A stretch of 64,000 bases of DNA from Leptonema illini DSM 21528 (GTDB lineage Bacteria > Spirochaetota > Leptospiria > Leptospirales > Leptonemataceae). The DNA lies in contig NZ_JH597773.1 in assembly GCF_000243335.1 (NCBI RefSeq), forward strand, positions 3,618,115 through 3,682,114. The letters are read 5' to 3'. Under the pieces are notes generated by a model. That model did no database searches. It saw only the letters and a program-made list of their open reading frames with translations, and was not told where the DNA came from. This document shows, in pieces, positions 7,063 to 13,184 of the stretch (the first letter of the stretch is position 1; the number at the start of each line of letters is the position of its first letter). A program made the translations under genes and the position numbers.

Positions 7063-7698
7063 CTATCGTTTCAGTCCGCTCTGCACAAGCATCACAATTA
7101 ACAGAAGAGCCGTCACCGGTAGAAAATGCTCCTGAAAGACGTGCAGGGAGCTGTGATCCCTACAGAGGATGCCGGCGCAGGCCGATGCTGCCAGTGAAGA
7201 CGAGAGAAAAAGAGCGATGGCCGATGCCTCGCGGTTCAGGACGAAGCGATTCCGGACGATGATGGCGAGAAAGATGAAGGGCAGGATGCCGATGAGCATG
7301 ATGTCGAGGATACACATGCTGCCATGCCAGCGCATGATCTCTTCGGCTGCCTGCGGCATTAACGAGATGTCATAGAGAAGGTATGCTCCCCATAGAACGA
7401 AGAACACGACAGTGAGCAGTTGCCAGGGCTTCGTCCGGCGCCCAGGAAGAGAGAGCAGAATCGCCCAGATACCCGAGGGCACAGCGGGCAGAAGCGCGAG
7501 CAAAAAGGCCGGATTAATAAGATGAAATGCCCAGCTGCGTTCGGGCATAATCATCGAGGCGATCGTCAGCGACGAAAGCACAAGGATAAGAAAGGCGCCC
7601 GCCCAGGTAAGGAGCGGCGGCCACAGACGCGAGCGATCGGGCACGCAGGATAGCTCGTTTACGAGCGAATCGATAAGATCAGATCGGCGTTCGTTCAT
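7063..7698 (-). CDS. nrsF: NrsF-type anti-sigma factor (DUF1109)
   Basis: Inner-membrane protein of 211 residues with about six hydrophobic segments. Size, topology and paired cysteines ('WHGSMCILDIM' near residue 128 and 'ASACAGILCRD' near 175) match NrsF/DUF1109, which in Caulobacter holds ECF sigma factor SigF at the membrane and releases it under oxidative or metal stress through its cysteines. The start overlaps the end of the sigma-factor gene by 4 bp, as expected for a sigma/anti-sigma pair with coupled translation. Confidence 0.78.
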   Translation of the reverse strand: MNERRSDLIDSLVNELSCVPDRSRLWPPLLTWAGAFLILVLSSLTIASMIMPERSWAFHLINPAFLLALLPAVPSGIWAILLSLPGRRTKPWQLLTVVFFVLWGAYLLYDISLMPQAAEEIMRWHGSMCILDIMLIGILPFIFLAIIVRNRFVLNREASAIALFLSSSLAASACAGILCRDHSSLHVFQEHFLPVTALLLIVMLVQSGLKR

Positions 7699-8279
7699 GG
7701 CCGCTCTCCCTGAAGCGACGACTCCGCCTCACCACCGGGGAATCTTGCCCGGATCTTCTTATACGCCCTGTGGGCGGCTACCTTCAATGCCGTTTCGCTC
7801 ATATCAAGAATAGAGGCCGCTTCCTTCACCGAGAATCCGTCGATTTTCAGGAGACGCACGATCTCACGCTGACGCTCGGGCAGATCCTGAATGGCACGCA
7901 ATACGGCCTCTCGATCGACCAGGTCGTCGGGGTTTTCCTTTTCATGATTCGCTATTAAAGGCAGGATGGTTTCACCCGGAACCTCCATTCGATCGATACG
8001 GCTCTGTTTTCTTACATAGTCGATATAGCGACGGTAGGCGATCGAATACATCCAGTTCGAATAGGGCAGCGAAGGATTGTAGGTGGAGCGGGCCCGATGG
8101 AGCGAGAGCAGCGTTTCCTGTATCAGATCGTCCCGGTTATCCTGCCTGTAGATGCGGGAGCGAAAGTAGTCCGAGAGCATGCGGGCGCTCTCTTCAAGCA
8201 GCAGCCTGTAGGAGCGCTGGTCTCCTGCGAGAGACTCGGTCATCCACCGTTTCAGTTGCTGCTCTTTGCTGTGCGCCAT
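7695..8279 (-). CDS. ECF RNA polymerase sigma factor, SigF-like
   Basis: Sigma-70 family factor of 194 residues with only regions 2 and 4. Region 2 is seen in 'DDLIQETLLSLHRARSTYNP' and 'SNWMYSIAYRRYIDYVRKQS'; region 4 in 'LPERQREIVRLLKIDGFSVK' and 'EAASILDMSETALKVAAHRA'. It is co-transcribed with the NrsF-like anti-sigma factor, which supports the SigF/NrsF class. Only 18 bp separate its start codon from the divergent fliG start, so the two promoters must overlap or lie within the opposite reading frames. Confidence 0.9.
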   Translation of the reverse strand: MAHSKEQQLKRWMTESLAGDQRSYRLLLEESARMLSDYFRSRIYRQDNRDDLIQETLLSLHRARSTYNPSLPYSNWMYSIAYRRYIDYVRKQSRIDRMEVPGETILPLIANHEKENPDDLVDREAVLRAIQDLPERQREIVRLLKIDGFSVKEAASILDMSETALKVAAHRAYKKIRARFPGGEAESSLQGERP

Positions 8280-8297: not shown

Positions 8298-9431
8298 ATG
8301 GAGCCCGAATGCGACTTAATCCATGTGAAAAAGCGGAAGAAGGATTCAGCGCTCGACTTTACGGTCGGTGATATGATTGAAGACAACCGGAGCAAGAAAA
8401 ATACTGCCGACCGGTCGGATCGGGGCCTGTTTCCGGAATTTCAGATTCAGGGCGGAGTTCAGAAGGCAGCCCGGCTGCTTCTTGCCCTCGGGGCCGACGA
8501 GGCGTCGCGCATTTTGCGAGAGATGCGGGATGACGAGATCCGCCTGCTCATCGAAGAGATGAGTCGCATCCGCTTTATTACTGCAGAAGAGAAGAATCGC
8601 ATTCTTGACGAGTTCCGCTCGGCCGTTCCTTCCGAGGCGCCGGTGGAGGGCGGCCCCGAGGCCGCTCGCAGCATGCTTGTGCGCAGCTTCGGCGAGGCGA
8701 AGGCCGACGAGATGCTCAGTCGCATGCAGCGGCAGGATGCACGGCGGCAGTTCGATTTTCTGACCGCCTATGAGCCTTCTCTCATCGCCTCGGTTCTGTC
8801 GCAGGAGCATCCGCAGATTGCCGCCGTCACGCTCTCGTATATGAAGCCCTCTCTGGCCGCCCAGGCCTTCAAATACATGCCCGATGAGTTGCGTATGGAT
8901 CTCTGTACGCGCATCGGCCGCTCGGCTAAGATCAGCCCCGAGGCCGTCGTGCGTGCGGCGAAGTCGCTTCAGGAGAAATTCGAGAAGCGCATCGACGAAA
9001 CCTTCAGCGACACAGGCGGAGCCGAGACGTTGGCCGGCATCCTCAACCATCTCGATCGTGGAACGGAAGAGCGCATCCTCGATCAGCTACAGAACGCCGA
9101 GCCCGAGCTGTTTGAGCGCGTGAAAGAGCGGCTTTATACGTTTGAAGAACTTGTGAGCCTCGATGCAAAGGAGCTGCGTCTGCTTCTCTCGCAGATCGAC
9201 ACCGATACGATAGCGACCGCATTGCGAGGAGCGCCCGAAGAGATGCGTCGCGCCTTTTTCAATTCGCTGTCGCAGAACCGCGCCGCCGACGTACTTGATG
9301 AGATGGACCATCGGGGCCCGATCTCGGTGCGTGAGATCAACGAAGGGCGCGGCTTCATTCTTCAGACGGCGCGACGACTCGATGAAGAAGGCCGCATCTT
9401 GATCAAGAAGGAGCGCGACGAGTACATTTAG
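8298..9431 (+). CDS. fliG: Flagellar motor switch protein FliG (possible paralogue)
   Basis: FliG sits in the rotor C-ring and transmits stator force. All three FliG domains are visible: N-terminal 'VQKAARLLLALGADEASRIL', the middle-domain EHPQ motif 'VLSQEHPQIAAVTLSYM', and the C-terminal 'FEELVSLDAKELRLLLSQID' ... 'RAADVLDEMDHRGPISVREI'. The frame gives 377 residues, about 40 longer than usual at the N-terminus. The ATG at 8373 ('MIEDNRSKK') would give a more typical 352. The charged torque-helix residues differ from E. coli (K for R in 'LDAKEL', 'DEMD' in the 'RDDL' position). It stands alone rather than in a flagellar operon. Spirochaetes often have more than one fliG. Confidence 0.88.
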   Translation: MEPECDLIHVKKRKKDSALDFTVGDMIEDNRSKKNTADRSDRGLFPEFQIQGGVQKAARLLLALGADEASRILREMRDDEIRLLIEEMSRIRFITAEEKNRILDEFRSAVPSEAPVEGGPEAARSMLVRSFGEAKADEMLSRMQRQDARRQFDFLTAYEPSLIASVLSQEHPQIAAVTLSYMKPSLAAQAFKYMPDELRMDLCTRIGRSAKISPEAVVRAAKSLQEKFEKRIDETFSDTGGAETLAGILNHLDRGTEERILDQLQNAEPELFERVKERLYTFEELVSLDAKELRLLLSQIDTDTIATALRGAPEEMRRAFFNSLSQNRAADVLDEMDHRGPISVREINEGRGFILQTARRLDEEGRILIKKERDEYI

Positions 9432-9473: not shown

Positions 9474-10346
9474 CTATCTGTGAAAGAGAGCGTCGAAGAA
9501 AAGGCGGGCGCTTCCTGTTGTGAAGAACAGGTCGACAAGCGGCAGAAAGAGGCGTCGTCGGCTAACCAGAAAGACCGGCCTCCATTGCGGATGAAACTTC
9601 GCTTTGAAGGCATATAGTCCGCGCGCATGATAAGCGTGTGACATCATACGTCCGTAAAAATGAATGCGAATATCGGGCGGATCGCCGACTACAAAAGGGC
9701 ATTCACCAAGGCTGAGTTCGTATGCTCCCTCCTGTTTGAGATCTGTAGCCGCCCGTATGATGAGCGCTTCCATCGTTCCTTTCGGAGCGTCCTGTGCTCG
9801 CATAAGGATTTCTGTGTGGTAGGCTCGTTCACCGCGACGACTGGCCGTCACCAGGCCGACGACCTGACCGCCGACGACGAAAGACCATGCCTTATGCCAT
9901 TGAGATGCGTCGGTGAGATAAAGCCCGCGTAACGCCGGCCTGTTTGCGTACGCGGAGCGGCTGCGTAGTTCACTCAGATCGGGGTAGGGCCGGTCGGTTT
10001 GTGATGTCGGGAAGTATTCGATATGGCCGTACCGCAAAGCACGCCTCGCAAGCTCTCGCAGCGACGATCTATGCCAGGCCGTATCATTGAGATCAAGGGC
10101 CGCTTCGATGCCGCTCTGGAAGACGTGGCTGCCTGTTTTACGAAATCGTAGCGCAATCTCTTCGCCCGCTCCGCGTAGAACGGCAGGGCGTGCAGATACA
10201 AGCAGAGCGGTGAGAAGTTCATCAAGGTCGGATGTTTGCTTGAGCGAGGCGCTCTGAATCCACTGTGAGCGCGAGAGCAGCAGCGAGCGAGATATAACGG
10301 TCGCCTTATCGTCGAGACGCCAGCTCAGCGGGAGCTTTTCAGTCGT
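9474..10346 (-). CDS. DUF2156 / lysylphosphatidylglycerol-synthase C-terminal-like protein, non-standard start
   Basis: Probable aminoacyl-lipid transferase-like GNAT-fold protein. The C-terminal half carries family features: 'SFVVGGQVVGLVTASRRG', 'GTMEALIIRAATDLKQEG', 'YELSLGECPF', 'YAFKAKFHPQWRPVFLVS'. The first ATG/GTG/TTG in frame is TTG at 10037 (187 residues), but the frame stays open for about 103 more codons and encodes clear family sequence there ('QSGIEAALDLNDTAWHRSSL', 'RELARRALRYG'). An ACG at 10346-10344 lies 7 nt after a strong GAGGAGG Shine-Dalgarno sequence; starting there gives 290 residues, normal for the family, and overlaps the upstream gene by 22 bp. I therefore place the start at that ACG. 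A later in-frame CTG is an alternative. Confidence 0.7.
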   Translation of the reverse strand, partial: TTEKLPLSWRLDDKATVISRSLLLSRSQWIQSASLKQTSDLDELLTALLVSARPAVLRGAGEEIALRFRKTGSHVFQSGIEAALDLNDTAWHRSSLRELARRALRYGHIEYFPTSQTDRPYPDLSELRSRSAYANRPALRGLYLTDASQWHKAWSFVVGGQVVGLVTASRRGERAYHTEILMRAQDAPKGTMEALIIRAATDLKQEGAYELSLGECPFVVGDPPDIRIHFYGRMMSHAYHARGLYAFKAKFHPQWRPVFLVSRRRLFLPLVDLFFTTGSARLFFDALFHR

Positions 10347-12058
10347 AGTAACTCCTCCTCGTTTTTATGTATGATCTTTACAAGGTTCTGAATCAGGCCC
10401 AGAACGAAGTCGGGGTTCGCCTGCATCAGAGCATCGAGATGGTCACGGTGTGCCACGGCAACGACACAGTCTGTCACGCATTCGGCAGTCGCCGATCGCG
10501 GCTTATCTGATACAAGAGCCATCTCGCCGAAGATACTTCCCGGGCCGAGTTCCGAGAGCTGCAGACGCTTGCCGTTATCAAGCTCCTTGAAGAATGCGAT
10601 CTGTCCCTTTTTTATCAGAAAGAATTGTCCTCCGCGATCGCCCTCTTTGAAAATAGACTCACCGGCGCAGTAGTCGCGCTCGTTCTGCATTACGGTGAGC
10701 GGACGGACGAAAAGCGCGCGCACGCTATGACTGCCCGGAAAATTCAGAAGAAGCATGAAGCCTTTGATCAAACGAAAGAAAAGATAACGCAGAAAGTAGC
10801 GCTTATAGGATTGCTGATCGGGCAGAAGATCGACGATCATTCCCGAGGGATAGTGGCCGGTGTTATTCTCGATCGTTTCGCGAACGACATAGGTTATCGT
10901 TGAGCTGGTTCTGTTATGATAGCTCATCCGGAGCTGAATGCGATCTCCTTCTCCGAAGAAATCTTCAGAATGGATAAACATCGATCGCGAAGAGATCTCA
11001 TAAGAGATCGCCGAGATGCGAGTGTTTCGGTGACCGGTCATCTCGATGTCGACGACGACGGGAATACGCAGCCGTTTGTTCTTAAAGTACTCGGAGTTCA
11101 CGCTACCGATAACAAAAAAGATCACGCCAAACGAGGCGGGCATGATGCCGAAAATGGCGAGGCGATAGCTTGTATCTACTTTAAGAAAGGGCGAGTACCA
11201 ATCCGCATCAATAAAATAAAGAGCGGCGAAGGCAAGCATGACCAGCGAAAGAAAGATACGCAGATAGTTCGGCTGAAAGCGAAAGAACGGAATATGCGGT
11301 AGATTGCGCGTCCCGGACGAATAAAGGATCCACTTGGCGTAACCGAGCTGCTTTTCAAGCGTGAACCAGTCCTCGAAGCGCCAGGCTCGGTCGGCGAGAT
11401 AAGAATGTTCGGGAAAGGTCTGCATGCGCGAATACAGGACTTCAAACAGCAGCACGGAAAGGACGATCATCGGCCCCGTATAGACCTCCCAACCCTGATC
11501 GGGCATGCAGGTCAGATCGTACAGTCCGTGCAGGGCGACAGGAACGGCAAACGCAAGGACAAGCGACCTGACTCTATTTCCAGAAAGGGCAAAGGATCGG
11601 CCCATGCCGATGTAATACGCCTGGATGCCGCACGTCGCCAGATGCATGGGCACGGAGCTGATAAAGCGAATATAGATGCTTTCGGGAGGAAGATTGAAGG
11701 CATAAACGAGGTTTTCGAGAAATGCGAAACCGGCCCCGAAGTGGATACCGGCCGAGACAAAACGCCGGATTCCTGCTTTTCGGTAGAACAGGTGAATGAG
11801 TGCCAGCAAAAAGAGATAGCTGATCGCTTTCTCGAGAGCGGCCGCCTTGATAAAGACGCTCCAGTCGCCCTTGAGCAGCAAAAAAAATCCGCTCAACACA
11901 GAGGATAAAATCAAGAGAATGAGGCCGGCAAGAATTCCCGTCAGGAAGGACTGGAAGAGAAAGATGTATGGACGCAGGTTGCCGTAGTAGCTCAGGTACG
12001 CATAAAGCACCAGAAGCTGCACGAAGAGAAAGCCCAGTGTACGCGCATCAAGAGCCAT
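10325..12058 (-). CDS. PrsW-like membrane protein fused to PilZ-like and cyclic-nucleotide-binding domains
   Basis: A 577-residue membrane protein. Residues ~1-215 are a PrsW-type intramembrane protease region: 'ALEKAISYL' (E76), 'GAGFAFLENLVYAF' (E115, N116), 'SVPMHLATCGIQAYYIGMG' (H139) and 'VALHGLYDLT' (H177) match the family's E..K, FLEN, H and H motifs, although the first glutamate pair is reduced to one. Two more membrane segments lie at ~268-285 and ~302-320. Residues ~328-412 resemble PilZ ('KRLRIPVVVDIEM', 'ISYEISSRSMFI'), with the D-x-S-x-x-G motif degenerate. Residues ~464-545 are a cyclic-nucleotide-binding domain ('GESIFKEGDRGGQFFLIKKG', 'GPGSIFGEMALVSDKPRSAT'). The phosphate-binding 'FGEMAL...RSAT' cassette is intact. 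The downstream DUF2156 gene overlaps its end. Confidence 0.78.
   Translation of the reverse strand: MALDARTLGFLFVQLLVLYAYLSYYGNLRPYIFLFQSFLTGILAGLILLILSSVLSGFFLLLKGDWSVFIKAAALEKAISYLFLLALIHLFYRKAGIRRFVSAGIHFGAGFAFLENLVYAFNLPPESIYIRFISSVPMHLATCGIQAYYIGMGRSFALSGNRVRSLVLAFAVPVALHGLYDLTCMPDQGWEVYTGPMIVLSVLLFEVLYSRMQTFPEHSYLADRAWRFEDWFTLEKQLGYAKWILYSSGTRNLPHIPFFRFQPNYLRIFLSLVMLAFAALYFIDADWYSPFLKVDTSYRLAIFGIMPASFGVIFFVIGSVNSEYFKNKRLRIPVVVDIEMTGHRNTRISAISYEISSRSMFIHSEDFFGEGDRIQLRMSYHNRTSSTITYVVRETIENNTGHYPSGMIVDLLPDQQSYKRYFLRYLFFRLIKGFMLLLNFPGSHSVRALFVRPLTVMQNERDYCAGESIFKEGDRGGQFFLIKKGQIAFFKELDNGKRLQLSELGPGSIFGEMALVSDKPRSATAECVTDCVVAVAHRDHLDALMQANPDFVLGLIQNLVKIIHKNEEELLRLKSSR
10344..10360 (-). promoter_or_regulatory. 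Strong Shine-Dalgarno GAGGAGG before an ACG start candidate
   Basis: On the minus strand GAGGAGG (10360-10354), then a 7-nt spacer, then ACG (10346-10344) in frame with the DUF2156 protein. The element lies inside the last codons of the PrsW-PilZ-cNMP gene, whose stop comes 21 bp later, so translation of the two genes is probably coupled. Confidence 0.6.
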
Positions 12059-12872: not shown

Positions 12873-13184
12873 TTACAGCGGCTTATCGACAAAGACGATA
12901 TCGGTGTTCGCCATCAGTTGTGAAAGCTCTTCGTTGAGAGAGCGGCAACGAGCCGCGTTGCTTTCTTTCGCGGCGATCTCAATCTCGCGACCCAGTTCGG
13001 TAACGCGATCGAATCCGTAACCGCCGCCGGCCCCTTTCATACGATGACCGAGCGTTCGGACCGTTTCAAAATCTCCGGACTGAAGTGCATCATGGATAGA
13101 CGATATGTTTTTCGACACCGTATCAAGAAACAACGGCATGATATCTTCAAGCTCTTTTGAAACTTCGAGGCGAATGCGGGACAT
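12873..13184 (-). CDS. HPt (histidine phosphotransfer) domain protein
   Basis: Stand-alone HPt protein of 103 residues, a phosphorelay carrier between a hybrid kinase and a response regulator. The phosphoacceptor region is 'VRTLGHRMKGAGGGYGFDRV' (histidine at about 47), followed by 'ELGREIEIAAKE'. No kinase or regulator gene adjoins it, so its partners are encoded elsewhere. Confidence 0.85.
   Translation of the reverse strand: MSRIRLEVSKELEDIMPLFLDTVSKNISSIHDALQSGDFETVRTLGHRMKGAGGGYGFDRVTELGREIEIAAKESNAARCRSLNEELSQLMANTDIVFVDKPL

Follow-up and report, generated by a model that had tools for sequence, protein, structure and literature searches.

In Bacillus subtilis, PrsW is the site-1 protease of the anti-sigma factor RsiW and has a membrane-embedded active site of the glutamic type. 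Ordinary PrsW proteins share four motifs, EExxK, FxxxE, H and HxxxD/N, and a Bacillus E75A/E76A double mutant is quoted as having lost its function (PMC12943098). In other protease families, myxosortase (MrtX) and rhombosortase, an intramembrane protease is paired with a C-terminal motif, a transmembrane (TM) helix and a basic tail, known as MYXO-CTERM and GlyGly-CTERM, respectively. Myxosortase is a CPBP protease distantly related to PrsW that processes the C-termini of MYXO-CTERM proteins (PMC11980579). In it as well as in Rce1 the first glutamate activates water, while the last His/Asn form the oxyanion hole.

PrsW fused to PilZ, cyclic-nucleotide-binding (CNB), FHA or Zn-ribbon domains was described by Zhang et al. 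in 2012 under the term signalling peptidases (PMC3482391); the architectures are the same as those treated here, and the text consulted does not go into the motif, the distribution or the substrate. PrsW-PilZ proteins of Leptospira were described in 2025-26, and an anti-sigma substrate was suggested for one of them, LIC_20173 (PMC12943098; PMC11800159). The idea of PrsW-PilZ and PrsW-CNB fusions as signalling peptidases is already in print (PMC3482391; PMC12943098). In the open-access literature we found no link of an EK motif and a lipoprotein substrate to PrsW, which is weak evidence of novelty, no text naming PrsW together with LruC, and no text with PrsW and "cyclic nucleotide-binding" as adjacent terms, the 2012 paper using the unhyphenated wording.

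We analyzed a stretch of 64,000 nucleotides of the Leptonema illini DSM 21528 genome (the window), which encodes a PrsW-PilZ-CNB protein. It resembles B. subtilis PrsW in its four motifs and the membrane-embedded glutamic-type active site, whereas the latter has no cytoplasmic sensor domains, carries EExxK and cleaves an anti-sigma factor. With LIC_20173, this family has in common the PrsW region, nine TM helices, a non-canonical cytoplasmic PilZ domain and a tailed lipoprotein as neighbour. However, LIC_20173 lacks the CNB domain, keeps EExxK and belongs to a short PrsW-PilZ type on the other side of the tree. From sequence comparison we propose, with a probability of roughly 0.6, that the family processes the C-termini of lipoproteins and that a cyclic nucleotide (cNMP) gates this activity in the CNB-bearing clade. 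In contrast to the myxosortase and rhombosortase systems, the motif is LxAYL without cysteine or GlyGly, the proposed clients are lipoproteins, and the enzyme itself bears a putative cNMP sensor.

Domains and fold of the Leptonema protein

10325..12058, (-): PrsW-PilZ-CNB protein, 577 aa, ATG start (open reading frame; full-length orthologues of 27-48% identity)
11423..12058, (-): PrsW intramembrane protease region, residues 1-212, seven predicted TM helices (PF13367; helices of the AF2 model)
11093..11422, (-): amphipathic helix and TM helices 8-9, residues 213-322, linking PrsW to the cytoplasmic domains (AF2 model; charge pattern)
10784..11092, (-): degenerate PilZ domain, residues 323-425 (TIGR02266; PF07238 in relatives; fold)
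10352..10696, (-): CNB domain, residues 455-569 (PF00027; CRP fold)

In a Pfam search of the 577-aa protein, PF13367 (PrsW) matched residues 30-200 with 55.7 bits against a cut-off of 23.5 (E 6.2e-15), and PF00027 (cNMP_binding) matched residues 461-548 above its cut-off (E 9.7e-24). The NCBIfam PrsW equivalog NF033739 reached 50 bits, below its cut-off of 225. PF07238 (PilZ) gave no match in the query but was recovered in 11 of 30 relatives, the best of them at 1.1e-7; TIGR02266 covered residues 331-420 of the query below cut-off (E 4e-4, improving to 1.6e-5 on the excised piece). In the full-length AF2 model (pLDDT 79), nine helices cross the membrane, residues 336-411 form a beta barrel and residues 459-576 adopt a CRP-like CNB fold; structure comparison of the CNB region with CRP gave a Z of 17.5. 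When residues 318-432 were modelled alone (pLDDT 86) and compared with structures (VIA), some 30 PilZ entries scored a Z of about 9-12 before values dropped below 8. Among PDB sequences, the PilZ profile retrieved no match. We regard the PilZ domain as weak in sequence and clear in its modelled fold. Loop charges are consistent with an N-terminus in the periplasm and with PilZ and CNB domains in the cytoplasm, and in the model the catalytic residues are located in the periplasmic half of their helices.

The recurrence of the complete architecture in numerous species rules out chance as well as an artefact of assembly, and the three-domain observation is confirmed. The earlier note, made from the letters of the window alone, had named these domains, and their order and limits were upheld by the PF13367 and PF00027 profiles and, for PilZ, by relatives and by fold, the top structural matches of the PilZ-like part being PilZ domains.

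Several neighbouring genes were also recorded. A reading frame with the C-terminal domain of phosphatidylglycerol lysyltransferase (PF09924; 9474-10325(-)) abuts the end of the PrsW gene. A FliG-like protein with all three FliG domains is encoded at 8298-9431(+) and is found beside the PrsW gene in a neighbouring genus too (L039-L042). A stand-alone Hpt protein lies two genes upstream (12873-13184(-)), and an Hpt gene directly precedes the PrsW-CNB gene in the same four related genomes.

Distribution of the family and its active-site motifs

The Spirochaetota comparison set comprised 54 three-domain sequences from many families of the phylum, 13 PrsW-PilZ proteins without CNB (the short type) and 32 other PrsW proteins. 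Full-length homologues occur in most genomes of the window's family, in part of its order and in several further Spirochaetota families. An alignment-based search of genome contigs gave at least five full-length matches among the matches listed, with titles of Spirochaetota, Leptospiraceae or "uncultured bacterium", the remaining listed matches being mostly to CNB only; a single-protein query against genome contigs found no match. The CNB-bearing proteins form one side of a branch in the PrsW-PilZ tree (support 100/99), and this side was recovered again in a PrsW-only tree with motif 1 removed (SH-aLRT 96). The CNB type and the short type coexist in several genomes, and by Pfam profile the window's genome holds only one PrsW. 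Most three-domain proteins outside the window's order (L199-L240) additionally carry a C-terminal tail of 85-110 aa after the CNB domain, which is absent from the window protein.

11819..11833, (-): motif 1, residues 76-80, EKAIS instead of the ordinary EExxK (contrast of 54/54 with 45/45)
11714..11728, (-): motif 2, FxxxE, F111-E115 (both residues conserved without exception in the 54 fused and 13 short proteins)
11642..11644, (-): motif 3, histidine H139 (invariant in 54/54 and 13/13)
11516..11530, (-): motif 4, HxxxD, H177-D181 (the histidine is invariant; the last position is D in all 54 fused proteins and D or N in the short ones)

Motifs were read from alignment to the profile, a leftmost-match regular expression having been dropped as unreliable. 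Motif 1 is EKxx followed by a neutral residue in all 54 CNB-fused proteins and EExx(K/R) in all 45 Spirochaetota PrsW proteins without CNB, a contrast that represents one evolutionary event and not 99, since the fused proteins form a single clade. Two more EK sequences without CNB are fragments, truncated at a contig boundary or by a stop codon in frame. Outside the Spirochaetota, no EK was found among about 36 readable PrsW proteins, mostly from other phyla, all of which have EE. The window protein carries EKxxS in place of EExxK and retains FxxxE, the histidine of the third motif and HxxxD/N. K77 has been invariant since the EK change and position 80 varies freely; apart from K77/S80, the active-site residues E76, E115, H139, H177 and D181 are invariant in 54/54. 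By profile, the EK clade is a diverged PrsW clade and not canonical PrsW. The degenerate first glutamate pair that had been noticed at the outset is therefore real (E76-K77) and no quirk of a single gene.

The exchange of glutamate for lysine could have abolished catalysis, leaving a membrane cNMP receptor that binds its partners, perhaps the lipoprotein tails described below, without cutting them. This would agree with the fixation of EK and the loss of K/R at position 80 in all 54 proteins, and with the Bacillus double mutant quoted above. However, the counterpart of the water-activating glutamate of Rce1 and myxosortase, E76, is conserved together with the other four residues, whereas dead enzymes usually relax their catalytic residues, and the lipoprotein partners are of the same kind as those of EE-type relatives. 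Since the chemistry residues of Rce1 and myxosortase have counterparts here, the residues expected to carry out catalysis remain in EK proteins, and we consider a loss of proteolysis unlikely. The change from EExxK to EKxx, fixed in one clade, constitutes a natural experiment on the second glutamate of glutamic intramembrane proteases.

Lipoproteins with a shared C-terminal signal

At many loci, a gene adjoining PrsW-PilZ(-CNB) codes for a protein whose C-terminus consists of L-x-(A/G)-(Y/F)-L followed by a TM helix and a basic tail, an arrangement resembling MYXO-CTERM signals; a lipobox can be recognised in most of these proteins. An earlier rule (TM helix and basic tail only) was too loose and was replaced by an explicit one including the motif, which was written after part of the cases were known and then tested on other genomes. 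The rule picks out 24 of the 182 genes that lie at most two places from PrsW-PilZ(-CNB), compared to 1 of 340 further off; the 24 leave out one near match judged spurious, a membrane protein of 197 aa that is encoded in the window and has no lipobox.

We then examined the signal across 393 Spirochaetota genomes with a profile built from 19 tails. At E <= 1e-4, tails were found in 41 of the 53 genomes that encode PrsW-PilZ, compared to 1 of the 340 that do not; once the 18 genomes that had supplied the profile were set aside, the figures were 23/35 and 1/340. Kinship among genomes causes the Fisher values to overstate the independence of this co-occurrence. The 12 holders without a match at 1e-4 include several with weaker, correctly placed tails and some incomplete genomes, and the lone exception among the 340 is a 78% complete genome of the window's family (G004), in which the signal is present and PrsW-PilZ was not found. 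The matches inspected in holders are positioned at the exact C-terminus and nearly all belong to lipoproteins, whereas the weak matches inspected in non-holders do not fit. Sorting signals sit on unrelated protein bodies, and this one occurs on bodies as different as the LruC domain and CBM-like repeats. The co-occurrence with the protease and the extreme C-terminal position on differing exported proteins, as judged from lipoboxes and exact C-ends, both agree with a C-terminal sorting system that works like MYXO-CTERM/myxosortase. In L302 and L303, the gene preceding PrsW encodes a very large protein of about 1430 aa with the same C-terminal signal, outside the profile set.

In L. interrogans, the LruC-domain gene (LruC, LIC20172) lies 45 bp upstream of the PrsW-PilZ gene (LIC_20173). 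LruC was not among the cases defining the signal, and its C-terminus, SELMGFLLRS-TM-KRRTLSQA, conforms to it. The protein is reported to be an outer-membrane lipoprotein of the inner leaflet (PMC5406399), a location hardly compatible with a C-terminal inner-membrane helix, so that the helix is presumably removed, in keeping with the function proposed here. If this is true, LruC, an antigenic Leptospira protein, would gain a predicted route to losing a membrane anchor. The only good tail match in the window's genome (E 1.8e-5) is a 347-aa lipoprotein without known domain (G000:C1 near 1706770; L318 1498-2541(-)), with the lipobox AVSC and the C-terminal end TMAAYLLQ-TM-ARKRREV; like LruC, it had no part in defining the signal. 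Its gene is about 1.9 Mb away from the protease gene, and to judge from its tail it is the likely substrate in this genome.

A rival reading is a cAMP/cGMP-switched site-1 protease with a membrane anti-sigma factor as its substrate, on the model of RsiW cleavage by PrsW in Bacillus, the precedent cited by the earlier note. Apart from the family precedent, a gene pair in the window would suit this function, an ECF sigma factor gene overlapping one for an NrsF-like membrane anti-sigma factor (7063-8279(-), 2 kb away). NrsF, however, is a multi-pass protein, unlike RsiW. Orthologues do not have the pair as a neighbour, and the two small genes present at this place in L040/L041 differ in kind; we therefore rejected the pair as conserved context. 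The window's genome also encodes one zf-HC2 protein, and an anti-sigma substrate has been proposed for LIC_20173 in the 2026 Leptospira paper (PMC12943098). Beside the family, it is nevertheless lipoproteins with a C-terminal TM helix and no sigma or anti-sigma gene that are conserved, which makes an anti-sigma substrate improbable.

The lipoproteins might also be merely co-inherited neighbours, their tails being handled by another enzyme, given that both PrsW-PilZ and the signal are lineage markers. Yet the association persists in trans, across many families and within the order, where four of five PrsW-PilZ non-holders also lack the signal (G009, G010, G022 and G025), and we give this explanation very little weight. 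Processing of lipoprotein tails by PrsW-PilZ(-CNB) would provide the poorly understood PrsW family with a testable substrate class beyond anti-sigma factors.

Putative nucleotide sensing and proposed mechanism

10484..10534, (-): phosphate-binding cassette IFGEMALVSDKPRSATA, residues 509-525, with E512 and R521 (both invariant, 54/54)

The ribose-binding glutamate E512 and the phosphate-binding arginine R521 of the CNB cassette are conserved in 54/54 proteins, and the window's genome contains 27 class III cyclase-domain places. For the PilZ domain, the c-di-GMP motif RxxxR is absent in 54/54 orthologues and D/NxSxxG is absent at the aligned place in the fused proteins, its glycine being present in 13/13 short paralogues and lost in most fused proteins. 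The PilZ motif is thus as degenerate as had been suspected. The intact CNB pocket together with the lost PilZ motifs points to cAMP or cGMP as the likely signal, and binding of c-di-GMP by the PilZ domain appears unlikely. A protease under two messengers, c-di-GMP via PilZ and cAMP/cGMP via CNB, as the earlier note had envisaged, is scarcely credible, for although the PilZ fold is confirmed and both domains occur in 54/54, these motifs are gone whereas the CNB pocket is kept.

For the favoured reading, a protease of lipoprotein tails, we envisage that the lipoprotein is exported, lipidated and retained through its C-terminal helix. PrsW, with its site in the membrane's periplasmic half, would cut at or near LxAYL, so that the C-terminal TM anchor would be removed or the protein trimmed beside this anchor; the catalytic residues are periplasmic in the model, where the substrate motif should lie, which fits the tail as substrate. 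This would free the lipoprotein to move from the inner membrane to the outer membrane or the surface. In the CNB clade, cNMP made by the many class III cyclases would be bound in the cytoplasm, and the signal would be relayed to the active site via the PilZ barrel and then TM helices 8-9, the barrel probably having lost c-di-GMP binding and serving as a structural transmitter. If this holds, an intramembrane protease would be switchable directly by a cyclic nucleotide.

More tentatively, and at slightly less than even odds, the data may reflect a system spanning the phylum, in which EK-type PrsW proteases opened or closed by cAMP/cGMP release LxAYL-tailed lipoproteins, with LruC as a client of the ungated EE branch without CNB. 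Additionally, we observed that PilZ residue S385 (10904-10906) is serine in 53/54 CNB-fused proteins and free to vary in the short paralogues; it may mark a contact between the PilZ and CNB domains.
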